Shown: positions 1,335-24,178 of the stretch, in pieces
Layout of the letters: each line of letters begins with the position of its first letter
Numbering within the stretch: position 1 is the first letter of the stretch
IMG/VR virus record: IMGVR_UViG_3300043410_002126
Span: 1 to 33,026 of that record
Length of the DNA: 33,026 nucleotides
Strand: one strand, 5' to 3'
Origin: a virus
Program-made: the position numbers and the translations under genes
Notes under the pieces: model-generated
The model's database searches: none
What the model was told of the DNA's origin: nothing
The model's input: only the letters and a program-made list of their open reading frames with translations

Positions 1335-1343
1335 TGCTATAAT
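1335..1343 (+). promoter_or_regulatory. Extended -10 promoter TGcTATAAT
   Basis: TATAAT at 1338-1343 is preceded by TG one base upstream. No convincing -35. It lies between the last clustered tRNA and the first gene of the seven- to eight-gene operon 1364-6628. The expected transcription start is about 1350. Confidence 0.6.
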
Positions 1344-1363
1344 AGTCTAAGAAAGGTTTGGAT

Positions 1364-2068
1364 GTGGAAAAACCAGATATAATGACGATGGACGTACCCA
1401 ATTTTAATGTGTGGTACGAAACTTTCGATCCTATTTTTTCTAAGATAAGTCAGCAATCAAACATACCATTGAAGTGGATAGAGTTTTGGCCAATAAGATA
1501 TGGCCAGAATAAGAACTCTCCAATCAAACCAATTAATAGGTACGTAGAAAGACTGTACCCTAAGCCAAAGCTTATAGATATTACTAACAATATAGTTAGG
1601 CTTCGACAGGGTAACCATGCAGAAATAATTCTATTGGTAGATCCAGAAAATAGATTTCATAGTGGTGGTCAGGATACAGATGGATTCTATAATGTTGACA
1701 GGCCATGGATGAGACAATACTATCAGTCTAAGCTAGAGCTTCCAAAACCAGACAATTGTTTCGATCCACTGTATAAGTTTTATGTACCATGGTTTCCAGA
1801 TGCTGATGTTACCGTTCATTTTGAACCATCCCCAGTAGATACCCCATTCCATACCTTTGGGTCAGTGGCATCATATACAAAAGTAAACGTATTCCTAAGA
1901 TTTGCTGAACCACATTTCGTTCCATTTTATTTTAAAAAAGAAGGGGCACACATGGAAAGTCCCGTACAAGGAAGAATTCTAAGACAGTCTGCAATGTATG
2001 ATATGGTGTTTCATGCAGATGATGCTTTGATAGAGAGAATAAGGAAACAATATGAAGAAGAAGAATAA
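1364..2068 (+). CDS. Hypothetical protein, first gene of a decoration operon
   Basis: Function not recognised. About 234 residues, without signal peptide or membrane segment. It is rich in Pro, Trp, Tyr and Phe and contains short runs such as PWFPDADVTVHFEP. It may be a distant relative of the two genes downstream, judged only by similar size, composition and position. The GTG at 1364 was chosen because GAAAGG (1351-1356) lies 7 nt upstream; an in-frame TTG at 1358 has no room for a ribosome site. The predicted transcription start near 1350 makes the leader very short, so a later ATG (1382-1389) is possible. It overlaps the next gene by 17 nt and is probably co-transcribed with genes through 6628. 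Confidence 0.75.
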   Translation: MEKPDIMTMDVPNFNVWYETFDPIFSKISQQSNIPLKWIEFWPIRYGQNKNSPIKPINRYVERLYPKPKLIDITNNIVRLRQGNHAEIILLVDPENRFHSGGQDTDGFYNVDRPWMRQYYQSKLELPKPDNCFDPLYKFYVPWFPDADVTVHFEPSPVDTPFHTFGSVASYTKVNVFLRFAEPHFVPFYFKKEGAHMESPVQGRILRQSAMYDMVFHADDALIERIRKQYEEEE

Positions 2069-2792
2069 AGTAAACAAAGTACGTTTTTTTAACATTAGCG
2101 AAAAGACGCTAAACTTTGTTCCAGAACCTGGACCTGCAAGTAAGTTTATGCCAGCTTGGTATAAGAAGCAGCCAGGTAACGTTGACGAAAACATGTTGGC
2201 TGTAACTGGTCAGCCAGCAAATACTGTCAAGAAGTGTATGCCAATCTTTGATGCAATGACTGGTGGATATATCATTACGTTGCCAATGGATATCTATGTA
2301 GATGCAAGCAATCCAGATAAGCTAGATAAGCAGATTCCTGCTGCAATGGGTGCGTATAAAGCAGAAATTTTTGCAACTCATGATCGCAAGCAATACTCAG
2401 AATATCCAATTGATGAAGAAATCTATCACAGAGATCTTTTGAGAATTTTTCCATTTTGGGTTGTTGGAACAAGTGAGGGCGTAAGCTCTTTGTTCATTCA
2501 GCCACTACACAGAGACCAGACACCACTATTTGCATTGTCTGGAATTATTGATACAGACCAGTATCCATCAGATGGTCACCTATCATTTATGGTTAGAAAA
2601 GGATTTAAAGGTATTATTCCACAGGGCACTCCATTAGTACAGGTATTTCCATTTAAGCGAGAATCGTTTGAGATGGAGTTTGTAGACCAGACAGAAACAG
2701 AAGAATATCTGATGAAAAAGCGTATGACATTAAGAAGCTCGTTCTCAAACAGTTATAAAAATAAATTTAGAACTAAGAAGGAATGGAACTAA
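2052..2792 (+). CDS. DUF6065-like protein (paralogue 1)
   Basis: A 246-residue cytosolic protein of unknown function that I relate to the uncharacterised DUF6065 family, as judged by eye. It shares with the next gene an N-terminal PEPGP...P.WY motif (about residues 24-37), MPIFDAMTGGY (about 63-73), a PLxxxxxPLFALSGIID stretch and a C-terminal GxIPxGTPLxQVxPFKR block. The last two recall motif III of the dUTPase/dCTP-deaminase fold (GxID..., then GxxxxQ), but this likeness is weak and unverified. SD AAGGA sits 6 nt before the ATG, inside the preceding gene. Ends directly against the GTG of its paralogue. Confidence 0.8.
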   Translation: MKKKNKVNKVRFFNISEKTLNFVPEPGPASKFMPAWYKKQPGNVDENMLAVTGQPANTVKKCMPIFDAMTGGYIITLPMDIYVDASNPDKLDKQIPAAMGAYKAEIFATHDRKQYSEYPIDEEIYHRDLLRIFPFWVVGTSEGVSSLFIQPLHRDQTPLFALSGIIDTDQYPSDGHLSFMVRKGFKGIIPQGTPLVQVFPFKRESFEMEFVDQTETEEYLMKKRMTLRSSFSNSYKNKFRTKKEWN

Positions 2793-3581
2793 GTGTCAGA
2801 TAAGCCACTAGAGATACGATACATCCCACCTTATCTATACGGTAAGCAGCCTGGGATGACTGAGCATATTCCTCCTGAACCTGCCGTTAGGCATATTCCA
2901 GAATGGTATCGATCTCTAGCTAGGCACAACAAATCTAATGACGATATAACTCTAGATCCACAGAATCATATTGGTAATGATGGTGCACAGGTATCTACAA
3001 AGATGTGTATGCCATATTTTGATGCATTAACCGCAGGGTATGTATATGTTCTAGAAGATGATTTATATGTTGATTTAGATAAAGATGGTCATCCAATACT
3101 ATCTTGGAAGAATGATATCATGCTTGTAGATACACGAATTATCTTCGATGTTCCACTAATTGATAACTGCCACCCAATTCATTATGGATGGAGACAAAAC
3201 TGGTATTATGAAACACCACCAGGATATTCAGTTTTAATTACCCACCCAATGAATAGATTTGACCTACCATTCTATACTCTATCTGGGATAGTAGAGTCAG
3301 ATATCTGGGGTCTTCCAGTGTTTACAGCCTTTCAACTTAAAAGAAATTTTAGGGGGGTTATCCCAAAGGGCACACCACTCTTTCAGGTAATTCCATTCAA
3401 GAGGGATAACTGGGAGCTGAAGGTAGACGATAGCCAAGAAGCAATTGATGAGCATTGGTTTAGGGCTGAGAATAGAAGGTCTATGCTATACGGATACTAT
3501 AAGAAGACTGCGTGGAGAAAAAAGATATTTGGAATCTTTAATAAGAAGGATGACAAGGGGACGGATCATGATGATGTTTGA
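2793..3581 (+). CDS. DUF6065-like protein (paralogue 2)
   Basis: A 262-residue paralogue of the previous gene, with matching blocks: PEPAVRHIPEWY near residues 28-39, MPYFDALTAGY near 72-82, LSGIVESD, and GVIPKGTPLFQVIPFKRD near the C terminus. It starts at GTG immediately after the upstream stop codon; AAGGA about 10 nt upstream is the likely SD. The tail after residue 240 is basic. Neighbouring hydroxylases and glycosyltransferases suggest a role in the same modification process, but nothing in the sequence shows a catalytic activity. Confidence 0.8.
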   Translation: MSDKPLEIRYIPPYLYGKQPGMTEHIPPEPAVRHIPEWYRSLARHNKSNDDITLDPQNHIGNDGAQVSTKMCMPYFDALTAGYVYVLEDDLYVDLDKDGHPILSWKNDIMLVDTRIIFDVPLIDNCHPIHYGWRQNWYYETPPGYSVLITHPMNRFDLPFYTLSGIVESDIWGLPVFTAFQLKRNFRGVIPKGTPLFQVIPFKRDNWELKVDDSQEAIDEHWFRAENRRSMLYGYYKKTAWRKKIFGIFNKKDDKGTDHDDV

Positions 3582-4473
3582 TAAAAAGATAGAAGATCAC
3601 AAAATCATATTTGTCGTTACATCTTACAAGGACAAGAATTTTATTGATTTTCTTAAGCATACCCATGATGTTACGCATAGACATTCTCATTTTGAAGTTT
3701 ATGAATCTAACCCAATTATCCATGATTTAGAAATAAACAAGTTAGATTTTCATGTAGCATATGACTATAAAATCTGGGACTCGATAGAAAGTCCAGTTTC
3801 TAAAAAAACACAACGCCTTGAGTGGCTTGCTAGAGATAACAGAAACGAAGATGATGTTATATGCTTTATAACACCAGACACTATCCTATCTAAAGATTGG
3901 TATGTTGATGTAATCAAATTTCTAAAAGAAAATCCAAACTCAGTCATTTCTGGCAATGGTAAGGCAAAGGTTGGGCAAAAAGATTATTTTTCATATCAGA
4001 TCAACTTTGAAGAGTCTGACCAGTGGGAAAAGAATCAAATCATAACAAAGCATTTTATGGTTGGTTTTTCTGGAACATTCAAATCGATTAAAGGTCCAGG
4101 GTATTTGAAATATAACGGCGAAGACGAAGCTTGGACATTAGAGCTATTATCAAATAATATAGATATATATAGTGCACCATCATCTTTATATATAGATACT
4201 AAGAATAGATCTATGGAGACCACTTATAAAACTTGGTCATCTGATCATAATTACAACGTGGTTGTTGATTTGATTAAGGGAAATAACCTTGATAAGTATA
4301 ACGTTACAGAAGAAGGGCTAGAAAAATTCTTGTCTGCTCATAGCTCCATAAAGCCAGATGAGCTGTACCCACTGCCATACTCTACAAATGATGTTGATTA
4401 TGACCCATATAATCTCAAGATGCATGAGGTTGATGCAAGAAGATTTATTGCTGGAGTAAAGGCTATTTACTAA
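3568..4473 (+). CDS. Glycosyltransferase-like protein, divergent GT-A
   Basis: About 301 residues. It begins with a short strand (KIIFVVTSYKD) like the first Rossmann strand of GT-A enzymes and carries an acidic loop, ICFITPDTILSKDW (about residues 98-111), where the related GT60-like proteins of this window have D-S/A-H...WD. The canonical DxH is replaced by PDT, so metal or donor binding may differ. The start is taken at ATG 3568 after AGGGG; the longer frame from 3445 only reads through the upstream gene. It overlaps that gene by 14 nt and its stop overlaps the next ATG (TAATG). The likely role is sugar transfer in the operon's modification pathway; acceptor unknown. Confidence 0.65.
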   Translation: MMMFDKKIEDHKIIFVVTSYKDKNFIDFLKHTHDVTHRHSHFEVYESNPIIHDLEINKLDFHVAYDYKIWDSIESPVSKKTQRLEWLARDNRNEDDVICFITPDTILSKDWYVDVIKFLKENPNSVISGNGKAKVGQKDYFSYQINFEESDQWEKNQIITKHFMVGFSGTFKSIKGPGYLKYNGEDEAWTLELLSNNIDIYSAPSSLYIDTKNRSMETTYKTWSSDHNYNVVVDLIKGNNLDKYNVTEEGLEKFLSAHSSIKPDELYPLPYSTNDVDYDPYNLKMHEVDARRFIAGVKAIY

Positions 4474-5093
4474 TGACAAATTTAATTCATGTTATACCTA
4501 ATTTTGTAGATACAGAAGATGCAGAGCTTTGGATAAAAGAAGCAGACCACCCATCTTCCAGAGAAGATTATCCAGATTATTATAACGATAGATTTGGTGG
4601 CACAGCATTACCATATAACGAAAATACAAGATATTTAAATAAAAAATATGGTCGCAAGGCTGCGGAATATGTTAAGCAACTGTATGGATTTAAAAGTCCA
4701 GTACATGTCTATAAAGTATTTATGAATCATACTACAGATGTTGGATATTCTGGCGGTGTACATACAGATTCTGTTGATCCAGAACCATGGATAGAGTGGT
4801 CAGCAGTTCTATATTTAGACGATAAGTTTACTGGGGCAAATCTACATTTCCCAAATCAAGATTATATTCATATACCAAAGCCATTAGAGGCTGTGATCTT
4901 TCCATCTTCTGGAACATCACACCTTCATGGTATATCAGAGATGAAGAGTGGTGAGAGATACTCTATAGTTGTTTGTCTAACAAGCCTTCCATGGAAAGCT
5001 GATCCAGATATGCTGGAATCAGATGACAACATGGATTATGTTGGTGGATTATGGGACATGGAAGAAGAGGAGAAGAAGCGTGGAATGGCGTAA
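4473..5093 (+). CDS. 2OG-Fe(II) oxygenase, prolyl 4-hydroxylase-like (1)
   Basis: A 206-residue member of the 2-oxoglutarate/Fe(II) oxygenase superfamily with a double-stranded beta-helix core. The iron triad is visible as H97-x-D99 (GGVHTDS) and H152, with R162 exactly ten residues later (H...GERYSI) for binding the 2-oxoglutarate carboxylate. This is the standard prolyl-4-hydroxylase-type layout. The predicted reaction is hydroxylation of a peptide side chain; proline is the family's commonest substrate but is not proven here. The start codon overlaps the preceding stop (TAATG). A second oxygenase follows directly. The C-terminal tail is highly charged. Confidence 0.85.
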   Translation: MTNLIHVIPNFVDTEDAELWIKEADHPSSREDYPDYYNDRFGGTALPYNENTRYLNKKYGRKAAEYVKQLYGFKSPVHVYKVFMNHTTDVGYSGGVHTDSVDPEPWIEWSAVLYLDDKFTGANLHFPNQDYIHIPKPLEAVIFPSSGTSHLHGISEMKSGERYSIVVCLTSLPWKADPDMLESDDNMDYVGGLWDMEEEEKKRGMA

Positions 5094-5742
5094 AGATTAT
5101 TATAAGCCAAGAATTATCAAGAATGTTCTAACAGAAGAAGAAATTGATGAGCTAACTGCTGCTGTCCATTTTGCCAGAAACAATCAGGGATACTCTCCTG
5201 TTGTATTTAAATGGTGGGGTAGATTATCTCACGATGTAACTGTTCCAGAAAGTGTTAAGAAAAAGTTTGACAGCATAGTTAAACAGATTGATCCAAGCTT
5301 TAATCAGGTAGATCAAAATTCATTTATATACTCTGGAATATATGGAAAGAAGACCCACTTACCGCCACACCAAGACGCTGGTGGAAAATTGGAAATAACC
5401 CTTGACTATCAACTAGATGCAAATGTTAGTTGGCCAGTGGTTGTAGAAGGCGAAGAGTTTGTACTTGAAAACAATGATTTGTTGATTTTTGGTGGGGCAT
5501 CATATGTGCACTGGAGAACAGAGAAGTTTTTAACAGAAGATGAGCACGTTGATATGTTTAGTGTTAGCTATGCACGTCCAGAGTATGCTCAAGAATTTAA
5601 CAATAATCGTGAAACCTACATGGCAGATGTTGACAAGAGAATGCTAGAAGCACACAGAATGTATAACCCATCTTTTGATACAAGATCTTGCATAAGCAAT
5701 GACCAGATAGACCACTCAAGATGCAGTCACGAAGAATTATAA
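5080..5742 (+). CDS. 2OG-Fe(II) oxygenase (2)
   Basis: About 220 residues. Iron ligands are read as H97-x-D99 (LPPHQDAGG) and H144 (SYVHWR), with a beta-helix-like pattern between them (LDANVSWPVVV...NDLLIFGG). The spacing from distal His to a candidate Arg differs from the preceding oxygenase, so substrate preference probably differs. GTG 5080 was chosen because GAGGAG (5067-5072) lies 7 nt upstream; the longer frame from 5023 overlaps the upstream gene deeply and has no SD. The 14-nt overlap matches others in this operon. Confidence 0.75.
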   Translation: MEWRKDYYKPRIIKNVLTEEEIDELTAAVHFARNNQGYSPVVFKWWGRLSHDVTVPESVKKKFDSIVKQIDPSFNQVDQNSFIYSGIYGKKTHLPPHQDAGGKLEITLDYQLDANVSWPVVVEGEEFVLENNDLLIFGGASYVHWRTEKFLTEDEHVDMFSVSYARPEYAQEFNNNRETYMADVDKRMLEAHRMYNPSFDTRSCISNDQIDHSRCSHEEL

Positions 5743-5812
5743 ATAATATAAAGTTCTTTTTTTGGAAAATCAAGAACAGAAAAAAGCTTAAGAAGAAGGA
5801 TTATATTTACTA
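5720..5812 (+). CDS. Possible 30-residue basic peptide
   Basis: A short frame beginning inside the end of the preceding gene and ending directly against the ATG of the SGNH gene (TAA then ATG). The product is strongly basic and aromatic (KFFFWKIKNRKKLKKK). A similar basic, aromatic small frame follows another SGNH gene at 27352. No clear SD, so it may be only a coupling leader or a chance frame. Confidence 0.3.
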
Positions 5813-6628
5813 ATGGGGTTAGCGTTTGATTTTGGTAATAGCTCTAGAGGCAATAGCATGGAGTTTTCTAGAAACCTGCAGGACAGTGGCTATTTAAAAG
5901 ATTTTGGTCACAGGGATTCCTTAGTCAACCATGAGGAACAGCTAAACAGTTTGGGGTTTAGGTGTGATGAATTTATACATGAACATTCAAAAACTCATAT
6001 ATTATTTGCTGGATGTTCAGTTACTTGGGGTGACTATTTAAAAAAAGAAGAATCTTGGCCGATGCTATTGTTAAACAAGATAAAAAATCTTAAACCTGTT
6101 AGTGGATTTTTTAGCGTTGCATATCCAGGCTCTAGTATAGCAAAACAAATATCTCTAATCTTTAAATATATATATGATTTTGGCAATCCAGAAGTTATAT
6201 TTTTTCTTATGCCAAACTCAGGCAGATTCTTTACTATAGAGAATCTGTATGGCGAGGACCAAATAACATCTTCTATCCTAACACCAATTTGTAATAAAAA
6301 TTATCCAGGATCATCAAGAATAGTAAACCATTTATCTTTTGAGATGTATGCAATGCTAGAACAATACTGTATTGCAAATGGTATTAGGTTGATATCATCT
6401 TCTTGGCAAACTACTGAAGATGCAAAAGTTATTGGAAATACTTCTGAGTTGTTTGATGGAAAATTTGAAACATTTTTTTCTTATAAAGATATGGGAGAGA
6501 TGAATTGGATTTATGAATATATGAAAATAGACAAAGATGCAGAGCTTTTAGCTAAAGACGGTGTTCACCCTGGAAAAGCTAGGCAGGCTTGGTTTGCACA
6601 TGTTATGTTTAACAAATATTTAAATTAA
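5813..6628 (+). CDS. SGNH/GDSL-family hydrolase (1)
   Basis: A 271-residue protein with SGNH hydrolase features: block I FAGCSVTWG with nucleophile S69, a Gly-containing block YPGSS, an Asn-bearing strand (FLMPNSGR) and the C-terminal catalytic D249-x-x-H252 (KDGVHPG). The family includes O-acetyl esterases and transferases acting on glycans. GFRCDEF just before block I is shared with the SGNH domain at 20072. No signal peptide, so it works in the host cytoplasm or on assembling particles. It is the last gene of the operon from 1335 and overlaps the opposite-strand gene by 9 nt. Confidence 0.85.
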   Translation: MGLAFDFGNSSRGNSMEFSRNLQDSGYLKDFGHRDSLVNHEEQLNSLGFRCDEFIHEHSKTHILFAGCSVTWGDYLKKEESWPMLLLNKIKNLKPVSGFFSVAYPGSSIAKQISLIFKYIYDFGNPEVIFFLMPNSGRFFTIENLYGEDQITSSILTPICNKNYPGSSRIVNHLSFEMYAMLEQYCIANGIRLISSSWQTTEDAKVIGNTSELFDGKFETFFSYKDMGEMNWIYEYMKIDKDAELLAKDGVHPGKARQAWFAHVMFNKYLN

Positions 6629-7534
6629 CTTACAAGTAACTGGATCATATCCAGCAAATTCAATGTATTCTTCAATTGAGCGTTCTGTAAGTGCACCATT
6701 GATTGGATCATATATCTTATTAATAAAGATAGACTTAAAGTATTCGTGGTCCTCTTGTTCTTTTTTACCCCAAGCCTGTTGCCATTTTGGATCCTTGTAC
6801 CTTGAATACTTGATATATGAGTCTGGATCAGCATGCTTGTAGTCATAGCCAATCAAATAGCATCCAGCAGATCCAACTATGTTATAGCCACCTGTATATG
6901 CTCTAAGCATCATCATGGGCTGTTCATATTTAAACAGAATATTGTTGGCCTGTGGTACATCGTATAAAAATTGTGTCTTTCCGAATAGATGTCCTGCACA
7001 CACAAATCGCTCTATAGTTTGCACATTTTCTTTTGGAACTTGTTTACCCATAATTGGTCCACCATAAATCTCAAACCATTCTTCATCTGGTTCAGCTGTC
7101 CACGTACACCCTTTAAATTCTTCATCCCAATCCGTAAAAGTTGTAGGAATATATCCACCAATAATGCTTTTACCAAAATTAGTATTAGCTTCATCTAACT
7201 CTCTTATAAACTCAGTGTCCCAGTTATCTGCAAATTTTGTGTGAGAATCAACCTGTAAAAAATAATCTTCATCACTTACCATGGTCATCGCAATTTCACC
7301 ACGTATCTTTGTGAGAGATAGTGGGGCAATTTCAGCATCTATCCAAGTAAGCCTTACCTCTGGACCAATATTGTATATATCATTAATCATCCATTTATCT
7401 TCTTCATAACCCTGAAAGACACAGCCAAAAACAACCCTATCTTTGTCAGATGCCGTGGCATAAGCTGACCTAATCGTGTTGATTATGAAGGGATCTCTCC
7501 AGGCAGATACCTGAACAATTATCTTATTTTTCAT
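6620..7534 (-). CDS. GT60-like (GlcNAc-transferase family) glycosyltransferase (1)
   Basis: 304 residues resembling PF11397/GT60, the family of the Skp1 hydroxyproline GlcNAc-transferase. Visible features are the N-terminal VSAWRDPFIINTI strand-loop, Q41 after the second strand, an arginine helix (TKIRGEIAM) and the metal-site motif D96-S-H98 followed by F...NWD. The GT60-type consensus is DSHxxF..xWD. It should transfer a sugar from a nucleotide donor in the cytoplasm. SD AAGGAAA lies before the ATG. Its promoter TGGTATACT (7567-7559, minus) overlaps the divergent endolysin promoter. Its 3' end overlaps the SGNH gene by 9 nt. Confidence 0.78.
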   Translation of the reverse strand: MKNKIIVQVSAWRDPFIINTIRSAYATASDKDRVVFGCVFQGYEEDKWMINDIYNIGPEVRLTWIDAEIAPLSLTKIRGEIAMTMVSDEDYFLQVDSHTKFADNWDTEFIRELDEANTNFGKSIIGGYIPTTFTDWDEEFKGCTWTAEPDEEWFEIYGGPIMGKQVPKENVQTIERFVCAGHLFGKTQFLYDVPQANNILFKYEQPMMMLRAYTGGYNIVGSAGCYLIGYDYKHADPDSYIKYSRYKDPKWQQAWGKKEQEDHEYFKSIFINKIYDPINGALTERSIEEYIEFAGYDPVTCKLI

Positions 7535-7547
7535 GGTTTTCCTTACG

Positions 7548-7556: not shown

Positions 7557-7558
7557 TA

Positions 7559-8178: not shown

Positions 8179-8180
8179 TG

Positions 8181-9436: not shown

Positions 9437-9676
9437 ATGGATGCAGTAGCAGAAGTAAAAGAGTGGGTGTTAACAGCAAATGATCGTTGTGACTCTTGTG
9501 GGGCTCAGGCCTATGTTCAGGTAACTGGTGTTTCTGGTGACTTGCTGTTTTGTTCCCATCATTATAATTCCATCATGGATAACGCTGTTGGATATGACAA
9601 AATGATGAAGTTTGCATACTCGTTTATTGATGAGCGTGAACGACTACAGGAGAACAGGACAAAGGGAGATGACTAA
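9437..9676 (+). CDS. DUF7455-like zinc protein
   Basis: 79 residues. LTANDRCDSCGAQAYVQV (12-29) and LLFCSHH (36-42) match the short actinobacterial family DUF7455 (ADRCDxCGAxA...LLFCxHH), with C18, C21, C39 and H41/H42 as likely zinc ligands. Function unknown. SD AGGAGAG. This family supports an actinobacterial host. Confidence 0.8.
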   Translation: MDAVAEVKEWVLTANDRCDSCGAQAYVQVTGVSGDLLFCSHHYNSIMDNAVGYDKMMKFAYSFIDERERLQENRTKGDD

Positions 9677-10676
9677 AAGAGTATTGCTGACTGGCTCATC
9701 AGGCCTGCTTGGATCTCATACCCTTAAGAGGATTTTGCAAACAACTGATTGGGATGTTGTGTGCCTATCAACATTTAATCATACTGGCATTCAGGATCGT
9801 GTTATCGAGGCTGCGAATCTAAACACTGACATATATCGTGCAAGAGTCAAGGTGTTGATTTGTGACCTGTCTTCTCCAATTTCAGATGTCACTAAGTCAA
9901 AAATTGGAAAAATTGACTATGTTATTAACTTTGCTAGTGAAAGTCATGTGACAAGAAGTATAGAAAATCCCACACCATTTATTTTGAACAATGTTCAGCT
10001 CATCTGTAACCTTTTAGATTGGGCAAGAGAAAATCCAGTAGAAAAGTTTTTGCATATCTCTACAGATGAAGTTTTTGGTCCATATCAGAATAGAGATTTT
10101 ACAGAGTGGGACCCTCATCTTCCTAGTAATCCATACAGTGCTTCTAAGGCTGCTCAGGAAAATATTGCATTCTCTTACTGGAGAACCTATGGGGTTCCAG
10201 TAGGCATTGTAAATATTATGAATATAGTTGGTGAATATCAAAACGTAGAAAAGTATACGCCAATGATCATGAAGAAGGTTATGAGCGATGAGGTTCTAGA
10301 CGTACATACCTATGACAATGGAAGCAAGATTGGTAGACGAAGCTGGCTTTATGTTGGCAATATGGCATCAGCTGTTTTGCATATTCTTGGACAAAGTTTT
10401 GATTCAGTTAATGACTCAAATAAACTAAGTAGATGGAATATTGCTGGCGATGGTGACTACTCTAATCTTGAATGGGCAGAAAAAATTGCAGGCATTATTG
10501 GAAAAGATCTAAAGTATAGACTAGTAGACACAGCATCTTCTAGACCTGGCTATGACGCTAGTTACGCACTAAATAACCAGAAGCTACTTAATTCTGGGTG
10601 GAAGCCACCGTATGACCTAGATGAGGCATTAGTAGATGTTGTTAATTGGTATATGGAGCATCCAGAATGGTTGTAA
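9669..10676 (+). CDS. NDP-sugar 4,6-dehydratase / epimerase (extended SDR)
   Basis: A 335-residue extended short-chain dehydrogenase. The NAD-binding G9-x-x-G12-x-x-G15 motif (LTGSSGLLGS) is at the N terminus; STDEVFG (131-137) and Y156-x-x-x-K160 (YSASK) are the catalytic elements. The D-E pair after the Thr is the signature of dTDP-glucose 4,6-dehydratases, so 4-keto-6-deoxysugar formation is the likeliest reaction. The frame is open from 9612, but ATG 9669 is preceded by AAAGGGAG and gives the normal N terminus. It overlaps both neighbours (8 and 10 nt). The next gene, a sugar C-methyltransferase, would use its product. Confidence 0.85.
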   Translation: MTKRVLLTGSSGLLGSHTLKRILQTTDWDVVCLSTFNHTGIQDRVIEAANLNTDIYRARVKVLICDLSSPISDVTKSKIGKIDYVINFASESHVTRSIENPTPFILNNVQLICNLLDWARENPVEKFLHISTDEVFGPYQNRDFTEWDPHLPSNPYSASKAAQENIAFSYWRTYGVPVGIVNIMNIVGEYQNVEKYTPMIMKKVMSDEVLDVHTYDNGSKIGRRSWLYVGNMASAVLHILGQSFDSVNDSNKLSRWNIAGDGDYSNLEWAEKIAGIIGKDLKYRLVDTASSRPGYDASYALNNQKLLNSGWKPPYDLDEALVDVVNWYMEHPEWL

Positions 10677-11863
10677 GAAATAAGTGTCGTGCATGTAATA
10701 GTTCTAATTTATTTTTAGCGATTGATCTTGGTATTCAGCCATTAGCTGGTGGATTCGTCAAAGAAAAAGAACCATCCTATCTGTATCCAAACAAAATGAT
10801 GGTTTGTAGTGATTGTGGTTTAGGCCAACTATCCGTTGATATCAAGCCAAGTGAACTATACAAGAACTACAACTGGAGAACTTCAACGAGTAAATCTTAT
10901 CTAGAGTATATCTATGAGTTTGCAGATAAAAATATTATACCTAGGGTAAATCCAGGGGAATGGGTTCTAGAGATTGCAAGTAATGATGGGTATCTGCTTA
11001 AGTATCTACAGTCAAATGATATTGATGTGCTTGGTGTAGACCCTGCAGAAAATATATCTAGATATGCTATTTGTGATGGGGTACCAGTCATTACAGACTT
11101 TTTTGGAACAGTGGTAGCAGAAGATATCGTTAGACTAAAGGGTAAGCCAAAGTGGATTATTGCTAATAATGTTATGGCACATACTCCAGATATTCAGGAC
11201 TTTATGGCAGGAATAGCATTGCTATGTGACAGAGATACAATTGTTACAGTGGAGAACCCAACCATTATGAACATCATTGATCATGATCATTTTGATGTAA
11301 TCTTCCATGAACACTATTCTTATTTGTCTGCCCATGCCGTTGCAAAGCTTGCCAATAAGATGGGATTGTCGCTATTCAATGTTCAGTCAGTTCCGCCTCA
11401 AGGTGGTTCAAACAGGTATTGGATAAAGCAGGGTGGAGAACCAACTGAAGGTGTTAGAACCGCAATTAGAGAAGAAATACAGTATGGGCTTCTAGATAGA
11501 AATAAGTGGTCTGAAACTGAGGGTAGGATTCGTAAATCAGCAAATGCATTCAATGGTAAGGTTGAGTCTATTTGGCAGTCTGGTGGCGTTGTGTGTGGTG
11601 TTGGAGCATCTGCAAAGTCAACTGTAGTCCTTAATTTTGCTGGTGTACAATCAAAAAGAATTTCAGCAATTGCTGATGACGTAAAAGAAAAACAGGGTCG
11701 CTATGTTCCAGGACCCAACATACCAATTACAAGTATGGATGAAATGCTAAAACTTGATCCAACTGATATAATAGTTTTTGCATGGAACATCAGAGAGGAT
11801 CTTGAGAAAAAGCTCAGAGATCTTGGGTACACAGGTAATGTCTGGGTATGGAATGGAGAATAA
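10667..11863 (+). CDS. SAM-dependent sugar C-methyltransferase
   Basis: 398 residues with the three-part layout of deoxysugar C-methyltransferases (TylC3/NovU/TcaB9 type): an N-terminal zinc domain (C7, C10, C47, C50), a class I SAM fold with VLEIASNDGYL (100-110), and a C-terminal domain with GASAKS. The active-site motif is FHEHYSY (213-219); in TcaB9, as I recall, it is YHEH, so the catalytic Tyr appears replaced by Phe. It should methylate C3 of a 4-keto sugar made by the preceding dehydratase. ATG 10667 has GGAG 8 nt upstream and overlaps the dehydratase gene by 10 nt. Confidence 0.85.
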   Translation: MVVRNKCRACNSSNLFLAIDLGIQPLAGGFVKEKEPSYLYPNKMMVCSDCGLGQLSVDIKPSELYKNYNWRTSTSKSYLEYIYEFADKNIIPRVNPGEWVLEIASNDGYLLKYLQSNDIDVLGVDPAENISRYAICDGVPVITDFFGTVVAEDIVRLKGKPKWIIANNVMAHTPDIQDFMAGIALLCDRDTIVTVENPTIMNIIDHDHFDVIFHEHYSYLSAHAVAKLANKMGLSLFNVQSVPPQGGSNRYWIKQGGEPTEGVRTAIREEIQYGLLDRNKWSETEGRIRKSANAFNGKVESIWQSGGVVCGVGASAKSTVVLNFAGVQSKRISAIADDVKEKQGRYVPGPNIPITSMDEMLKLDPTDIIVFAWNIREDLEKKLRDLGYTGNVWVWNGE

Positions 11864-17383: not shown

Positions 17384-17473
17384 GTCCCTCATACAGGTCT
17401 ACGCTTAGGATGGATTAGTTACCTATTTTATGACCGTGGCCTTCGTGCTTGAATAGCCTGTATGGGGGATTTT
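17384..17473 (+). ncRNA. Candidate structured small RNA, about 90 nt
   Basis: 17385-17397 pairs with 17457-17469 over 13 bp (one T-G pair), closing the molecule. Inside, TACG (17400-17403) pairs with CGTG (17444-17447) and AGG (17407-17409) with CCT (17440-17442). A short T run (17470-17473) follows the closing stem. Promoter, stem and T run line up as a discrete transcript in a gene-free gap of about 220 nt. It does not fit a tRNA. No known family recognised; a regulatory leader of the GT61 gene is an alternative. Confidence 0.5.
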
Positions 17474-17474
17474 G

Positions 17475-17483
17475 TGTTATAAT
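17475..17483 (+). promoter_or_regulatory. Extended -10 promoter TGtTATAAT
   Basis: TATAAT at 17478-17483 with TG upstream, 24 nt before ATG 17508. It would start the GT61 to carbamoyltransferase operon independently of the small RNA. Confidence 0.5.
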
Positions 17484-17507
17484 TGGTATGTAGAAGAACG
17501 GATCACA

Positions 17508-18569
17508 ATGAAGCTTGAATTGCAAACTGTGTTAGAACAGAGAAAAAGAAATAATAAAATAAAGACTGACAACATATTGCCAGTCCCATGGGTTGAATAT
17601 AAAGATACCTACAATAAAGTTTTTGCGGAAATTGATCCAAACAGGGTAGACTATGTATCCGTTTCACCTGGAAATTCTTTTTCATCAAAAGTAATAGATA
17701 AAAATCTTATGGATGATCAATCTGTAATTCATGATTTTGTTGGTCCAGATAGAAAAATAATCATTACACTTTACCACCAATGGTATCATTTTTTGCTAGA
17801 TACCTTGGTTTATGTGTATCAGGCTTGGCTAGATAACAAAGACACAAAGATAATATTTATCAAAGACATAAGGCAGTTAGATTACTTTGAAGAAAAGTTA
17901 ATGCCATTTTTATATAAATTTTTAAAGCATTTTAATATTACAAACTATACCTTTATTGAGAGAGAGGTCTTTCAGAAAAATCCAGTTTTAAAAATTAATA
18001 ACTATTGCTATAAAAAATTAGATTTTGGATCAGATATCTATTGGCTATGTAATGAATTTATAAAAGATATGTACCCCTGCGATGACGCTGAACCATTTAG
18101 AAAAGTATATATTTCAAGAAGAAAGAATTACGTAAAGCCAACAAATGAAGAGGGCTTTGTTGAAGAAGGATTTGATACATCACGTGTTGGCAATGAAGAG
18201 GCCGTAGAAGAATATCTAAAAAAATATAACTGGGAAATCATGTATGCTGAAGATTTTGAATCAGTAGAAGACCAAGTAAAATATTTAAGAGAGACAAAAT
18301 ATTTAATGGGAGCATCTAGTGCTGGACTAATAAATGCTTGTTTTATGAAGCCAGGCACAAACGTAATCGAACTACTGACCACAATAGCTATGTGGCAAGC
18401 AGGTGGAAAGCTAACTGAGCAACGTGCAGAATTTCATGTTCTATACACTGTTATGTGCTGGAGTCTGTCTATTTTCCATGCCTCAATTCCAAATATTAAA
18501 AACGAGGCAGCTCTTTTTGAATTCATAGAAAGAAATAAACATGCCAAAGAGCTTGTACAAAACACGTAA
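17508..18569 (+). CDS. GT61-family glycosyltransferase (DUF563)
   Basis: 353 residues with the GT61/DUF563 C-terminal signature: YISRRKN (about 199-205), GNEEAVEEYLKK, then the segment YLRETKYLMGASSAGLINACFMKPG (split: YLRETKYLMG, SSAGLIN, FMKPG) and NVIELL, which in family members forms the nucleotide-sugar site. HQWYHFLLDTL near residue 87 matches the conserved His-Trp-Leu region. The family includes xylosyl- and GlcNAc-transferases. ATG 17508 was chosen because the frame upstream overlaps the promoter. It overlaps the next gene by 29 nt, heading an operon with a kinase and nucleotidyltransferase. Confidence 0.82.
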   Translation: MKLELQTVLEQRKRNNKIKTDNILPVPWVEYKDTYNKVFAEIDPNRVDYVSVSPGNSFSSKVIDKNLMDDQSVIHDFVGPDRKIIITLYHQWYHFLLDTLVYVYQAWLDNKDTKIIFIKDIRQLDYFEEKLMPFLYKFLKHFNITNYTFIEREVFQKNPVLKINNYCYKKLDFGSDIYWLCNEFIKDMYPCDDAEPFRKVYISRRKNYVKPTNEEGFVEEGFDTSRVGNEEAVEEYLKKYNWEIMYAEDFESVEDQVKYLRETKYLMGASSAGLINACFMKPGTNVIELLTTIAMWQAGGKLTEQRAEFHVLYTVMCWSLSIFHASIPNIKNEAALFEFIERNKHAKELVQNT

Positions 18570-19386
18570 CTTTAATCAGATTACTGAATTGTTAAATGGG
18601 GCAGTACTCGAAAAAAGATCTACTAATGTGGATAAGCTGAGATCTGAGTATAGATACTATTATGCATGCAATACTATTATGCAAAGATATATGGTAAAGC
18701 CATTTAGCTTTAAGGTTGAAAGCGGAGAGGCTTCTTATCGTATGCATAACTTGAAGTCACCAGACTTAGGATATCTTTATGCTAATGAAATGCTAACTGA
18801 AGATATGTTTAAAACTTTCTTAAACAGCTTTGACATATTTAGAAAATCTGAAAGTGCTAAGCCATTTCATCCTGCAGAATCTTATAGTCTAGTAGTGAGA
18901 AAAGCTAAAACTAGAATTCTAGATATGTATGGCGGTACATTGCCACAAGACAAAAGAGACCTTATCCATAGACTTGATCTTGCATACAATCACTATAATA
19001 ATTTTAGACTTACATCTTTTGCTAGACCGTCACATGGAGACCCATGCTTATCAAATGTTGTCATTACAAAAAGTGGGCATATAAAAATGTTCGATCCCAA
19101 GGGTATAGAGTTTTTTTATCTAGATGAATACTACGACATTGCAAAAATATCACAAAGTATTCATGGTGGTTATGAGCATATAATTCATGACAGGGCCAAT
19201 TTTGTTCCACAATACCAATCAATTTTTGAAAAATATCTAGATGCTAATAAAATAAATATTGGATTGCTGCGTGTTTACGAGGCATCACTATTTATATCTA
19301 TGTGTCCAATGCATCAGGATAGGCCTGACCATATAGATAGATTTTTTAATACTGCAGATAAGATACTGAAAGAGGTTAACTTTTGA
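18541..19386 (+). CDS. Kinase-fold phosphotransferase (APH/choline-kinase-like)
   Basis: 281 residues with the catalytic loop H165-G-D167-x-x-x-x-N172 (SHGDPCLSN) and metal-binding D185 in MFDPKG, the pattern of aminoglycoside/choline-kinase-like phosphotransferases. The N-terminal ATP lobe is less clear, but AYFx-type lysine candidates lie in the strand around residues 53-60. The next gene is a nucleotidyltransferase; such kinase-nucleotidyltransferase pairs make activated sugars or polyol phosphates in capsule pathways. Predicted role: phosphorylate a small sugar or polyol precursor. Confidence 0.78.
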   Translation: MPKSLYKTRNFNQITELLNGAVLEKRSTNVDKLRSEYRYYYACNTIMQRYMVKPFSFKVESGEASYRMHNLKSPDLGYLYANEMLTEDMFKTFLNSFDIFRKSESAKPFHPAESYSLVVRKAKTRILDMYGGTLPQDKRDLIHRLDLAYNHYNNFRLTSFARPSHGDPCLSNVVITKSGHIKMFDPKGIEFFYLDEYYDIAKISQSIHGGYEHIIHDRANFVPQYQSIFEKYLDANKINIGLLRVYEASLFISMCPMHQDRPDHIDRFFNTADKILKEVNF

Positions 19387-20072
19387 TTAACGTTGTTGTT
19401 TTGATGTCTGGTCTTGGAACTAGATTCTATAATAGTGAATTTGAAAAGCCAAAGCCTTTTATAGAGGTAAATGGAAAAGAGATGTATCTAAGGTCTGCCC
19501 ACAACTGTCATGGTGATCGATTTGTGTTTGTTGTTCAAAAAGAAAATTCTGTTCGTTTTAACATGCATACCAAAGTTTTTTCTGAATTTGAATCTTCTGT
19601 AATTATTGAATTAGATAGCGTTACGTCAGGTCCTGCGGTATCTGCACTAAAAGCTGCAGAATGGATTGATAACGAAAATGAATTATTGATTATCAATTCT
19701 GATCAAGAACTATTATGGAATTATGATGATTTTATTTCTGAAGCAAGGAAATCTGATGGTTGCGTTGTGGTTGTTGAACGAGAAGGTGATCGCTGGTCTT
19801 TTGCAAAAGAAGTAGATGGTATCGTTACAATGATAGCTGAAAAAAATCAAATAAGTAAAAATGCATTATGCGGAATACATTATTTCAAAAGGGGTAGCGA
19901 TTTCATAAAGTATGCAAAACAAATGCTAGAGGATGATAATAAGGTTAATAATGAATTCTATGTATCTAATGTATATAACTATGCTATAGAAGATGGAAAA
20001 ATAATAACGATGTATAAGGCAGACGATATGCTAGATTACGGAACACCAGAGAGCTTGAGGGTTTACCTATAA
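19383..20072 (+). CDS. Sugar-nucleotidyltransferase
   Basis: 229 residues with the nucleotidyltransferase (NTP_transferase) pattern: MSGLGTRF (8-15) for the NTP phosphate loop, KPKPFIEV (22-29), IINSDQ with D107 as the metal ligand, and a closing YNYAIEDGKII block. It should join an NTP to a sugar (or polyol) phosphate made by the preceding kinase. The TTG start at 19383 overlaps the upstream TGA (TTGA), and its stop overlaps the next ATG (TAATG). Confidence 0.82.
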   Translation: MINVVVLMSGLGTRFYNSEFEKPKPFIEVNGKEMYLRSAHNCHGDRFVFVVQKENSVRFNMHTKVFSEFESSVIIELDSVTSGPAVSALKAAEWIDNENELLIINSDQELLWNYDDFISEARKSDGCVVVVEREGDRWSFAKEVDGIVTMIAEKNQISKNALCGIHYFKRGSDFIKYAKQMLEDDNKVNNEFYVSNVYNYAIEDGKIITMYKADDMLDYGTPESLRVYL

Positions 20073-21583
20073 TGCTTCATTTATTGGGAATTAATAGATA
20101 TGATCCAAAAGATATTGCACCACGTGTAATCGAGACTCTGGTTAATAGTCACATAATTTTTGGAGAGCATGAGGACGCAGCTAAAGAATTCATGAAGATG
20201 GTTGGCGTAGATTACTCTAATAAAGAAGTTTATGAAGTAAATGCCAGCAATGAGGGTAAATATTCTAGGTGGGCCGTAGAGCAAGTTAGGCTGGGTAAAG
20301 ATATTGCATTCCTTACTGGAGATGGTTATCCAGTAATCACAGACCCAGGATATGTGTTGGTTAATACATTTATTCAAAATGGCGAAGAACTTCGTGTATA
20401 CCCACAGGTATCTGCTATTGCTTCATCAGTTATTCTTTCTGGATATCTTGGTGCAAACAACGAGACATTCTTTTATGGAGGCATGCTAGATTTCATGACA
20501 GATAAAATGAAGTTAGAGGCAAAAAAATCAGAGGATGTTCTTGGTATTTATTTGTTTCAAGGAACTTATCATAAAATACCAAATCTAATAGACATATATG
20601 GCCCAGAGCGTGATGCTGTAATTTGTATAGATATGGGGCATGATACACAAAAAATTATTAGGACAAAGGTTGGTTTGCTGTTTGCAGAACTTAGTTCTGG
20701 ATATACATATGCCACATTTGTTGTAGCTCCAAGAGACAGAGAGTCATTTTTTAATATAGCTAAAATGCCAAATAATGTTCTTGAAAGAGGAAACCTAAAA
20801 AAAATTGGTGAGCAGCAAAAAACAAATTATATACATAATAGTTCAAACTTTAGATGTGATGAATTTAGAAAAGATCATGACAAGGGCTTACACATTCTTT
20901 TTAGTGGATGTTCAAATACCTGGCCACAAGCTATTGACGAGGATAAGGGGTGGGCTAAGCAAATATATAATAAGCTAAATAAAGAATATAATCTAAATGG
21001 CTATTATAATCTTGCAATACCTGGAGCCAGCATATCTGAAATTTGCCAAAATGTAATGAGTTACTGTCAGGTTTATGGTAAGCCAAATGTAATATTTTTA
21101 AATTTACCAGATGCTAATAGAGAAGCAAAAATTCCAGGAGACTTATCACATAAGAATGAGTATACTAGTTTTGAAAAACAAGAGTATGCAGATAAAGAAT
21201 ATGAAAGACTTCAGGGATATTGTTCTGTAAATAATATCTTGCTAATTACTTTTAGTTGGACGGATACAATGCTTAAACCTGGTGGGCATGTAATAGCTGC
21301 ATTAGAATATCTCTTGGGCAGACCACAGAAGCATGTGTCAATATCAAAAGATTTTAATACATATAAAAAATTTGACATCAATGATTTCAAAAACTATGTT
21401 GTTGAATATTTTAAAAACAACCCAGATGATCATGATGCTGATGTAGCAAGGGATGCGGATCATCCTGGTCACGCTGTACATTGGGCATGGTACAATTGCT
21501 TATATGAAATGTTTACAAAAAATCCTGAATATCTTGGCCAGATTGAAAGCTACAAGAAGGTACAACAAGGCAATCAAGCGTAA
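20072..21583 (+). CDS. Fusion: tetrapyrrole-methylase-fold (RsmI-like) domain + SGNH hydrolase
   Basis: 503 residues in one frame. The N-terminal part (about 1-225) resembles the SAM-dependent tetrapyrrole-methylase fold, nearest by eye to RsmI: AFLTGDGYPVITDPGYVLV (79-97; RsmI has SDAGTPLISDPG), a Pro-Gln-Val-Ser-Ala element at 111-115 where RsmI has PGPSA, and NEG at 60-62. The C-terminal part (about 255-490) is an SGNH domain: FSGCSNTW with S281, PGASIS, an Asn-strand FLNLPDANRE and D461-x-x-H464 (DADHPG). NFRCDEF just before block I is shared with the SGNH gene at 5813. The acceptor is unknown. The C terminus extends past the catalytic His by about 40 residues. Confidence 0.75.
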   Translation: MLHLLGINRYDPKDIAPRVIETLVNSHIIFGEHEDAAKEFMKMVGVDYSNKEVYEVNASNEGKYSRWAVEQVRLGKDIAFLTGDGYPVITDPGYVLVNTFIQNGEELRVYPQVSAIASSVILSGYLGANNETFFYGGMLDFMTDKMKLEAKKSEDVLGIYLFQGTYHKIPNLIDIYGPERDAVICIDMGHDTQKIIRTKVGLLFAELSSGYTYATFVVAPRDRESFFNIAKMPNNVLERGNLKKIGEQQKTNYIHNSSNFRCDEFRKDHDKGLHILFSGCSNTWPQAIDEDKGWAKQIYNKLNKEYNLNGYYNLAIPGASISEICQNVMSYCQVYGKPNVIFLNLPDANREAKIPGDLSHKNEYTSFEKQEYADKEYERLQGYCSVNNILLITFSWTDTMLKPGGHVIAALEYLLGRPQKHVSISKDFNTYKKFDINDFKNYVVEYFKNNPDDHDADVARDADHPGHAVHWAWYNCLYEMFTKNPEYLGQIESYKKVQQGNQA

Positions 21584-21598: not shown

Positions 21599-23017
21599 TT
21601 GAAAATCTTTGGCTTTAACGAAACCTCTCATGATGCTTCTGTGTCTGTAATTAAAAATGGAATAATCCTATTTGCTGGTCATGCTGAAAGATATAGCAAA
21701 GAAAAAAATGACTGGTATACGAATAAAGAATTGTGGGATGACGCATATATGTGGGGCAAGCCAGATGCCATTGCATACTATGAAAAGCCGTGGTTAAAGA
21801 AGATTAGGCTATCTTTGCGTGGTGGTGCTGCAGACTGGAAACCAAAGCATAGGTATGATGTTTCATTTAAGCATCATTATTCACATGCTTGTGCAGGATA
21901 CTATACAAGCCCATTTAAGAAAGCAGCAATTGTTGTTCTTGATGCAATGGGTGAATTCGCTACATCAACTGTCTGGGCAGGAGATGGAGAGCAGATAAAA
22001 CTTATTAAAGAGATCAAGTATCCACTGAGCTTTGGCCTATTCTATACTGCTTTTACACAACTAATTGGTCTTAAACCAAATGAACACGAATATATTTTAA
22101 TGGGTATGGCAGGGTATGGAAATCCAGATCGATACTATAAAAAGGTATTAGAGTATTTCCCATATACAGGTAAACAAAAGTATAACTATCATAAAGGAAT
22201 TCTGGATTGGAATGAACCAATTACAGAGCAAGATAAATTTGATATAGCTGCTGCTGTACAGAAAGTATATGAGTCAAGACTATGGGACTTTATGTGTCAT
22301 GTCAGAGTATCATGGCTACCAGAATATGATAATTTGGTTTTTATGGGTGGCTGTGCTTTAAATAGTAAAGCCAATACAATGCTATGGAAGATATTTAAAG
22401 ATGTTTGGATTATGCCTAATCCAGGAGATGCAGGAAGCTCTCTTGGTGCTGCCCTTGCACTTCGTGGTAGACATGTAAAGTGGGAAGGACCATACCTTGG
22501 GCATGATCTTGGTAACGAATACCCAGTTGATGCAATCTTTAATGAGATAATGACAAATAAAATTTGTGCTGTTGCTGCAGGTAGAGCAGAATTTGGACCA
22601 CGTGCATTAGGAAACAGAAGTATCTTGGCAGATCCACGGGACCCAGATATCAAAGATAAAGTTAATCTAATTAAACAAAGAGAACTCTTTAGGCCATTTG
22701 CCCCTGTAATAATGGCAGAACATGCATCTGAATGGTTTGATATGGATTATGAATCTCCATACATGCAATACACACCCAAGTGCCTTAAGCCTGAGCTGAT
22801 TCCATCAGTGGTCCATGTAGACGGTACATCTAGAGTTCAGACGGTCACAAAGGAGCAGCATCCAGGGCTGTACGAGGTTCTGAGACGTTTTTATGAGGCA
22901 ACTGGAGTTCCAGTACTACTGAATACTAGTTTAAACGTAAAAGGCCAACCATTGCTTAATGACAAAGAAGATATTAAGCTTTGGGAGCAAACATACAATA
23001 CCAAGATTGTGATATAA
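21599..23017 (+). CDS. O-carbamoyltransferase (NodU/CmcH/TobZ family)
   Basis: 472 residues. The N-terminal Kae1-like carbamoyltransferase domain shows GFNETSHDASVSVI, AERYSKEKND, HHYSHACAGYY and VLDAMGE. The C-terminal YrdC-like/carbamoyltransferase C domain shows RAEFGPRALGNRSILADPRD, LFRPFAPVI and LLNTSLNVKGQPL. It transfers a carbamoyl group from carbamoyl phosphate, through carbamoyl-AMP, to a hydroxyl of a sugar or small molecule. A phage copy could also act on modified DNA bases, but no base hydroxylase is in the window. It starts at TTG 21599, 15 nt after the preceding stop; no strong SD. Confidence 0.9.
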   Translation: MKIFGFNETSHDASVSVIKNGIILFAGHAERYSKEKNDWYTNKELWDDAYMWGKPDAIAYYEKPWLKKIRLSLRGGAADWKPKHRYDVSFKHHYSHACAGYYTSPFKKAAIVVLDAMGEFATSTVWAGDGEQIKLIKEIKYPLSFGLFYTAFTQLIGLKPNEHEYILMGMAGYGNPDRYYKKVLEYFPYTGKQKYNYHKGILDWNEPITEQDKFDIAAAVQKVYESRLWDFMCHVRVSWLPEYDNLVFMGGCALNSKANTMLWKIFKDVWIMPNPGDAGSSLGAALALRGRHVKWEGPYLGHDLGNEYPVDAIFNEIMTNKICAVAAGRAEFGPRALGNRSILADPRDPDIKDKVNLIKQRELFRPFAPVIMAEHASEWFDMDYESPYMQYTPKCLKPELIPSVVHVDGTSRVQTVTKEQHPGLYEVLRRFYEATGVPVLLNTSLNVKGQPLLNDKEDIKLWEQTYNTKIVI

Positions 23018-23024: not shown

Positions 23025-23222
23025 ATGTCAGAAAGCATGTTTGAATCATTATTTGGCTTTAGCAAAAAGCCTGCAGAAGCTCCTGTGGCAGATAGTGTGC
23101 CCCTAACAAATGGAGAGGTGTTTGGCGATCTTAGTCCAATACACCAACGTATCAGTGACGCTGAGTGGGGTTCTAATCAGAATGGACTACCTGACTCGTG
23201 GCAATTGACGACAGACCAGTAA
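23025..23222 (+). CDS. Hypothetical small protein
   Basis: 65 residues, acidic, with low-complexity character (Ser, Pro, Ala), starting MSESMFESLFGFSKK. No family recognised. The start is set by the 6-nt distance to the -10 box. It overlaps the next gene by 25 nt. Confidence 0.65.
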   Translation: MSESMFESLFGFSKKPAEAPVADSVPLTNGEVFGDLSPIHQRISDAEWGSNQNGLPDSWQLTTDQ

Positions 23223-24178
23223 ATCAAAAAACTATATTTGTAACCATTCCGTCTTATAATGACGTATCCCTTTTGCGTACCCTAGACAGGGCATTAGAAA
23301 AGGCACGGTACCCAGAAAACATATACTTCTGTATTGGGCTACAGTATTCTGAAGAGCTTATGCCAGATCTATCTAAGTATAAAGACAACCCAAATTTTAT
23401 TTTCCTAACATACGATGTAGATAAGCGTCCAGGAGTTTATTGGATTAGAAGAGAGATGGCAGAGAAACACTCTGACCAAGATTACTTCCTAATGATAGAC
23501 TCACATATGAATTTTGTTGAAAACTGGGATGTTAGATTAATCAATGACTATGAGTCATTAGTTAGACATCATGGAACAAGGACGATTCTTTCTAAACCAA
23601 CAATGTCTGAGGTTGGGCATACCTTTGATAATGGGCATATACATGATATATGTAGGTGGAAAGCAGACTTTTCTTTTGATCCAAACAGTATAGAAAGAAC
23701 AATATTGCCATGGGTTGATATGGTTCCATGGGATGGAACAAGATTTATTAAGCATCTTTTATCATGCAGCCACTTCTTTTTTACTAACAAGCTTTGGCTT
23801 GAAGAGGTTGGGTTTTTTAATACCATCAGATCATATAGTGAAGAAATGACAATCGCTGTTTCATCCTTCTTATCTGGATGGGATTTCTATTCTATGCCAG
23901 AATTTATACACATAGGTCATGATGATGACGAGACCTCAAAGAGAATATACGGGGGAATGTATACTTTGGCACAGGGTAAAAGATATCAGGCAATCTTTGA
24001 GAATGATGAACTAAAGAAAGAGATTGATAGTTTTTGCTTGCTGGACAACTCCAATATCTTTAAGGTAAGAAATCAGGCAAGATCGATAGATGATTTTTAT
24101 ATTGAAGCTGGGGATGAGATATCTGATGCAAGAAAACAGCTATTGATTAATTTAAGTCTAAATCAATTCCAAGCTTAA
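23198..24178 (+). CDS. GT60-like glycosyltransferase (3)
   Basis: 326 residues, the copy closest to the GT60/PF11397 consensus: IFVTIPSYNDVSLLRTLDRAL (as IFVTIPSYND and LLRTLDRAL), GLQY, KRPGVYWIRREMAEK and D101-S-H103-M-N-F..NWD. Family members with these motifs transfer GlcNAc to hydroxyproline (Skp1). FIHIGHDDDE near the C terminus may supply the third metal ligand. GTG 23198 is the only plausible start but has no clear SD; it probably relies on coupling to the 65-residue gene. Its 3' end overlaps the opposite sulfotransferase gene by 32 nt. Confidence 0.82.
   Translation: MAIDDRPVNQKTIFVTIPSYNDVSLLRTLDRALEKARYPENIYFCIGLQYSEELMPDLSKYKDNPNFIFLTYDVDKRPGVYWIRREMAEKHSDQDYFLMIDSHMNFVENWDVRLINDYESLVRHHGTRTILSKPTMSEVGHTFDNGHIHDICRWKADFSFDPNSIERTILPWVDMVPWDGTRFIKHLLSCSHFFFTNKLWLEEVGFFNTIRSYSEEMTIAVSSFLSGWDFYSMPEFIHIGHDDDETSKRIYGGMYTLAQGKRYQAIFENDELKKEIDSFCLLDNSNIFKVRNQARSIDDFYIEAGDEISDARKQLLINLSLNQFQA

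Follow-up and report, generated by a model that had tools for sequence, protein, structure and literature searches.

Gene content of the locus

The DNA analysed here, called the window throughout, is a 33 kb fragment (33,026 nucleotides) of an uncultured phage in IMG/VR (record IMGVR_UViG_3300043410_002126). It encodes glycosyltransferases of family GT60 and 2-oxoglutarate (2OG)-Fe(II) oxygenases (Table 1; genes are named by their first position), a combination that the original prediction had read as possible hydroxyproline glycosylation by a phage. The genes between 1358 and 6628 all lie on the plus strand and the GT60 gene 6620-7534 converges on them, which is the arrangement described in that prediction. 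Its account of what this operon encodes was borne out for two 2OG-like oxygenases and a GT-A transferase, whereas 5813, which has no Pfam match and no useful PHROG match, takes its SGNH label from motifs only.

No near relative among sequenced phages was detected by megablast with positions 1335-15000; the GT60 proteins have only distant matches in sequenced phages, in Xanthomonas and Stenotrophomonas jumbo phages, and tblastn with oxygenase 4473 found nothing in the phage collection. Comparisons were made with G001, a 116.9 kb relative in which most proteins common with the window are 90-100% identical, with a further fuller relative, G002 (110.9 kb), and with the shorter G003 and G005. Individual loci carry L numbers.

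Table 1 Genes of the window discussed in the text
Positions	Strand	Assignment	Evidence
1358..2068	+	Cassette gene 1, conserved first gene, protein without assigned family	Orthologues in G001, G002, G003, G005, L107, L147
2052..2792	+	Cassette gene 2, phrog_7084/DUF6065-like	phrog_7084, E 9.9e-43
2793..3581	+	Cassette gene 3, phrog_7084/DUF6065-like	phrog_7084, 1.6e-34
3568..4473	+	Cassette gene 4, divergent GT-A transferase, remote GT60 relative	hhalign 98.6% to GT60
4473..5093	+	Cassette gene 5, 2OG-Fe(II) oxygenase closest to prolyl hydroxylases	Phage 2OG families; P3H1; model
5080..5742	+	Cassette gene 6, divergent 2OG-oxygenase-like protein, HxD...HxR	phrog_2954, 1.9e-10
5813..6628	+	SGNH-hydrolase-like protein, accessory	Motifs GCSVTWG, DGVHPG
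6620..7534	-	GT60 glycosyltransferase, DSH motif	PF11397, 69.4 bits, 5e-19
9612..10676	+	NAD-dependent sugar epimerase/dehydratase	PF01370, 2.4e-41; PF16363, 8.6e-41
10646..11863	+	Sugar C-methyltransferase-like protein	PF08484, 2.9e-27; PF08421
15865..16815	+	GT60 glycosyltransferase, DAH motif	PF11397, 52.2 bits, 8.3e-14
17472..18569	+	GT61 glycosyltransferase	PF04577, 6.2e-18
19383..20072	+	Sugar nucleotidyltransferase	PF00483, 2.4e-11
20072..21583	+	TP_methylase domain fused to SGNH-like domain	PF00590, 1.9e-11; C-terminal part homologous to 5813
21599..23017	+	O-carbamoyltransferase, recurrent GT60 neighbour	PF16861, 2.9e-54; PF02543, 7.2e-38
23198..24178	+	GT60 glycosyltransferase, DSH motif	PF11397, 60.9 bits, 2e-16
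24898..26031	-	GT60 glycosyltransferase, DAH motif	PF11397, 58.5 bits, 1e-15
28363..28911	+	2OG-Fe(II) oxygenase	PF13640, 44.3 bits, 3.7e-11
31145..31732	-	2OG-Fe(II) oxygenase adjoining thyX	PF13640, 46.7 bits, 6.7e-12

GT60 transferases and 2OG-Fe(II) oxygenases

Four of the five transferases that had been proposed as GT60-like or related (6620, 15865, 23198 and 24898) exceed the PF11397 (GT60) cut-off of 21 bits, and all four keep the D-x-H motif (DSH or DAH), which is invariant in alignments A1 and A6; PF11397 had no match in the 14 named control genomes. In GT60 and GT27, both of which comprise polypeptide O-glycosyltransferases, D-x-H is reported to stand in place of DxD (PMC7185993). 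Since 15865, 23198 and 24898 are only 19-31% identical to 6620, the four proteins would be old paralogues or separate acquisitions. The fifth transferase, 3568, had been named a divergent relative. Its remote kinship to GT60 was recovered by hhalign, but it gave no PF11397 match in the Pfam search (only a sub-threshold PF00535 match) and has ITPD at the D-x-H site, the motif being lost. It shares the GT-A core with GT60, yet should not be classed as GT60. A sequence-profile search of the PDB with GT60 returned hemocyanin noise only and was discarded.

The four oxygenase genes of the original prediction, said to have H-x-D...H...R residues, are real, but only 28363 and 31145 pass Pfam, and in 5080 the invariant Arg sits two residues past the distal His (HxD...HxR), a non-canonical spacing. 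In 4473, which has no Pfam 2OG match, H97, D99, H152 and R162 are invariant across six orthologues, and the protein matches phage 2OG families and prolyl 3-hydroxylase 1 (P3H1; 5.8e-6, profile 2.1e-7). Its structure model (predicted local distance difference test, pLDDT, 91) was confidently that of a 2OG-oxygenase. Prolyl hydroxylases are among its top fold matches, namely P3H1, a viral collagen prolyl hydroxylase and the prolyl 4-hydroxylase (P4H) of Bacillus anthracis, at a template modelling score of about 0.6, and PKHD enzymes match too. The HxD...H iron ligands are invariant in the oxygenase alignment A3, which together with the 4473 model indicates the double-stranded beta-helix fold of the 2OG-Fe(II) superfamily. 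Protein 5080 is linked to the other window oxygenases by hhalign (95.8%) and had no relative in the search of solved structures, and the nearest solved relative of 31145 is a B. anthracis P4H (2.3e-4 to 3itq/5hv0). Going by the title of PDB entry 5v7y, a B. anthracis P4H acts on EF-Tu. By these comparisons, the four window oxygenases can be called 2OG-oxygenase-like, which falls short of proven prolyl hydroxylases.

The mobile cassette

Judged by gene order, 1358-5742 represents the main part of a mobile cassette of seven genes, which other phages carry complete and uninterrupted. L147 (44-4948) has the seven genes unbroken: a 1358-type gene, two phrog_7084 genes, a 3568-type transferase, two oxygenases and GT60. 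L107 follows the same plan, but a protein with HxH...H...R replaces one phrog_7084 gene. The cassette of G005 ends as in L147, one oxygenase precedes GT60 in G002, and SGNH and carbamoyltransferase genes are inserted before GT60 in G003. In the window and in G001 the cassette ends after the two oxygenases and the SGNH-like gene, and a 5813-type gene adjoins the cassette in both G001 and G003. The GT60 gene 23198 is the orthologue of the last cassette gene in G002, G003 and G005, resembles the last gene in L147 and L107, and lies directly behind carbamoyltransferase 21599 plus one small gene. Because the cassette stops early in the window and in G001 and the GT60 orthologue is found at 23198, we take the operon to be real, with its GT60 partner placed elsewhere in the same window.

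Genes 2052 and 2793, unlabelled in the original prediction, are phrog_7084/DUF6065-like, and 2793 is the best conserved cassette gene (79% in relatives). The model of 2793 resembles the dUTPase/dCTP deaminase beta-clip fold (best E 2.4e-4; pLDDT 72, moderate confidence), which may tentatively be extended to phrog_7084 proteins in general. Homologues adjoin the tail module in haloarchaeal tailed viruses, e.g. HF2 (L162, 8878-9762); no GT60 or oxygenase is annotated at these tail-module edges, which thus give no functional clue. The HxH...H...R family of L107 (1448-2080) also forms four tandem genes within the tail-fibre region of G001 (L036, 4634-7266). It was recognised neither by Pfam nor, for the one member tested, by PHROGs, and is probably a further 2OG-oxygenase family.

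Association of oxygenase and GT60 genes in phages and bacteria

Viral loci collected by GT60 profile, bacterial loci and one locus fetched via its oxygenase yielded 160 GT60 open reading frames in 50 clusters (50% identity). For the permutation, one random member was drawn per viral cluster and the GT60 gene was moved to random positions of the same locus in 2000 rounds. An oxygenase was the direct GT60 neighbour in a mean of 12.6 of 41 viral clusters against 4.2 expected, with the clusters partly dependent and the 3568 type included in the GT60 profile; none of the 2000 permutations reached the observed value, the maximum being 11. Phage arrangements vary: the oxygenase lies before GT60 with a 4-26 bp overlap, after it or divergent from it, and overlapping pairs occur in both gene orders. 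The orthologues of 28363 in G002 and G003 are among the genes that overlap a GT60 gene.

An oxygenase is also the direct neighbour at 13 of the 27 bacterial GT60 loci. Head-to-head pairs with 0-46 bp between the two genes occur in SAR86 and related gammaproteobacteria (L059, L060, L062, L063, L066, L069, L071, L074, L076 and L078), and the SAR86 pair stands alone, away from glycan genes. In six of these genomes the adjacent pair comprises the sole GT60 and the sole PF13640 gene, and PF13640 has three or four matches in each of two genomes that lack the pair. The oxygenase of the L059 pair (5321-5965 and 6001-7008), the one SAR86 member searched, is a canonical P4H (2jig, 6e-30; B. anthracis, 9e-29; human P4HA2, 1e-27), and the SAR86 P4H carries GEKW, i.e. 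the Lys anchor. Other gammaproteobacteria (L077, L080 and L081) have a convergent pair with a different oxygenase. The recurrent adjacency in phages together with the two-gene P4H-GT60 unit of SAR86 strongly supports a functional coupling of 2OG oxygenase and GT60, and it is rather likely that the two enzymes act successively on one substrate. On sequence grounds, the SAR86 pair is the strongest evidence for cooperation of GT60 and a prolyl hydroxylase in prokaryotes, and only homology would extend it to the window.

Characterised GT60 enzymes are polypeptide O-glycosyltransferases, and Gnt1 is specific for hydroxyproline (PMC6939170). The Trypanosoma cruzi pp-alpha-GlcNAcT, also a GT60 enzyme, acts directly on Thr (PMC3769586; PMC6939170). 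Mucin-type glycosylation of Ser/Thr by GT60 might therefore suffice, the oxygenases hydroxylating other things or the sugar and lying nearby as parts of a modification island, and an oxygenase is indeed absent as direct neighbour from several GT60 clusters, among them the largest with 37 members. We nevertheless consider this unlikely in view of the translationally overlapping oxygenase-GT60 pairs in several unrelated arrangements and of the SAR86 pair, which is isolated from glycan genes and whose oxygenase is a true P4H.

Sugar-tailoring genes and the acceptor

The proximity of carbamoyltransferase and GT60 genes, together with the nucleotidyltransferase, epimerase and C-methyltransferase of the window, suggests that the sugar is a dedicated one and carries a carbamoyl group. 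GT60 genes have carbamoyltransferase genes at their side in many unrelated phages and also in Xanthomonas phage XacN1. L025 (1233-5890) condenses the system into three overlapping genes, for oxygenase, carbamoyltransferase and GT60, in a tight run. The gene 24147-24935 on the minus strand, sulfotransferase-like by eye (PRSASSFFFDTL; no Pfam match), overlaps GT60 gene 24898, and this pair is kept in G002 and G003.

The many sugar-nucleotide and tailoring genes of the window would also suit a modification of host surface glycans or lipids, with receptor alteration or superinfection exclusion as the outcome and the oxygenases tailoring sugars; prevention of superinfection has been proposed for phage glycosyltransferases (PMC10202952). 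We regard this as improbable, as the GT60 enzymes characterised to date act on polypeptides, the part of the window that was annotated showed no recognisable membrane flippase, polymerase or ligase, and the P4H partner in SAR86 indicates a protein acceptor.

Carbamoylation is likewise known from DNA, since hydroxymethyl bases of phages can be carbamoylated (PMC8670742), and a base hydroxylated, glycosylated and carbamoylated for protection from restriction would agree with the position of 31145 beside thyX, with the dUTPase/dCTP deaminase resemblance of phrog_7084 and with weak sub-threshold Tet_JBP matches in G003 and G005. However, neither a TET/JBP enzyme (PF12851) nor a PF00303-type hydroxymethylase, as in a pathway to 5-hydroxymethylcytosine or its carbamoylated form, gave a match over cut-off in the window and its four relatives, three of these five records being fragments below 41 kb, and DNA modification is thus not supported by these searches. 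DNA-acting carbamoyltransferases co-occur with thymidylate synthase, and those beside glycosyltransferases belong to unmodified contigs (PMC8670742). The SAR86 partner of GT60 is, again, a P4H. We know of no nucleic-acid acceptor for GT60, and on balance DNA hypermodification appears very doubtful.

Proposed modification and its target

The reading that we prefer, which draws on sequence evidence throughout, is that the window is a phage protein-modification island whose products first hydroxylate a protein and then glycosylate it with a carbamoylated sugar by means of GT60 enzymes, and we judge its chances to be about even. The 2OG-Fe(II) oxygenases would put a hydroxyl group onto a protein side chain, most probably of proline, and the GT60-type GT-A transferases would add a sugar to the hydroxylated side chain. 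This sugar would be made or tailored by 19383, 9612, 10646, 21599 and the SGNH-like proteins, and further transferases may lengthen the chain. Taken by itself, the assignment of proline as the hydroxylated residue is possible and rather uncertain. The targets would most probably be phage structural proteins. Oxygenase 7406 of G001 and the four tandem oxygenase-like genes lie between tail-fibre genes, and virion proteins are therefore favoured, although we place the virion as target slightly below an even chance.

Several observations weigh against this reading. In collagen-type P4H, a Lys about 11 residues past the distal His (position from the 2jig/3gze alignment) is the 2OG anchor; 4473 and its orthologues have an Arg (R162) there instead, and the window oxygenases carry an Arg, likely their 2OG anchor, in place of this Lys. 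This Arg and the loss of D-x-H in 3568 of the operon detract from the original prediction, whose assignment to GT60 and pairing of oxygenases with GT60 were sustained, the latter by adjacency. Aquatic phages that lack GT60 commonly encode 2OG oxygenases (PMC12774648), in many GT60 clusters no oxygenase lies next to the transferase gene, and the beta-clip resemblance of phrog_7084 does not obviously fit protein glycosylation. A conserved Pro-rich virion substrate was sought by comparing G001 and G002, and none was found. One tail-region protein of G001 has an SPAPAP-like N-terminus that its G002 homologue lacks, the collagen-like tail fibre of G001 (PF01391, 3.5e-15) has diverged in G002 (41%), and the Pro-rich lysin linker (8213) is conserved, yet unspecific.

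The window further contains 17 tRNA genes and a WhiB-like transcription factor gene (13335-13631; PF02467, 1.7e-11). As whiB is regarded as a key indicator of actinophages (PMC10202952), this gene points to an actinobacterial host. Among actinophages, those of freshwater Nanopelagicales can by now be grown in culture (PMC10202952).

Relation to known systems

Plants, algae and protists are known to link sugars to hydroxyproline. The Skp1 PhyA-Gnt1 system of Dictyostelium and Toxoplasma, a pathway recorded to date in protists only, combines a 2OG prolyl hydroxylase with a GT60 enzyme, and here, too, confirmed GT60 proteins are linked to 2OG oxygenases. In contrast to that system, the present one belongs to phages and bacteria without Skp1, the window oxygenases are only remote P4H kin, and paralogous transferases, an O-carbamoyltransferase and SGNH-like proteins are partners. 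To our knowledge, no Skp1 is to be expected in bacteria or phages.

Mimivirus L230/R699 resembles the proposed scheme in that a viral hydroxylase and a glycosyltransferase act in series on a viral protein (collagen), but lysine rather than proline is modified, the enzymes are kin of lysyl hydroxylase and GLT25D rather than of GT60, and the virus is eukaryotic (PMC9546862). Glycosylation of mycobacteriophage virions (Freeman et al. 2023, via PMC12619734) shares phage glycosyltransferases, capsid and tail proteins and an actinobacterial host, whereas its description in PMC12619734 includes no oxygenase partner such as those of the window. PHD-like proteins are widespread in marine phages, and their 2OG-Fe(II) oxygenases (phrog_61 and relatives) are of the same superfamily and fold as those of the window; they are single, while the window's are cassette-bound and GT60-paired (PMC12774648). 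We found no report of phage hydroxyproline glycosylation or of a bacterial P4H-GT60 pair in the literature searched, which barely covers subscription journals.

We propose, tentatively, that prokaryotes and their viruses share hydroxyproline O-glycosylation by a GT60 transferase paired with a prolyl hydroxylase-like oxygenase, encoded in SAR86 by a two-gene unit and in aquatic phages by a mobile cassette whose products attach a carbamoylated glycan to phage proteins. The SAR86 pair, which can be tested directly in E. coli, probably offers the most promising starting point for experiments. If the proposal is true, it would account in part for the many oxygenase and glycosyltransferase genes of aquatic actinophages, which at present are often interpreted as protecting DNA, and small soluble enzymes for site-selective protein glycosylation would become available. 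The phage and bacterial version would offer a simple experimental system bearing on the origin of the P4H-GT60 oxygen-sensing pathway, and the protist Skp1 pathway would then be a branch of a module that arose earlier in prokaryotes or viruses.

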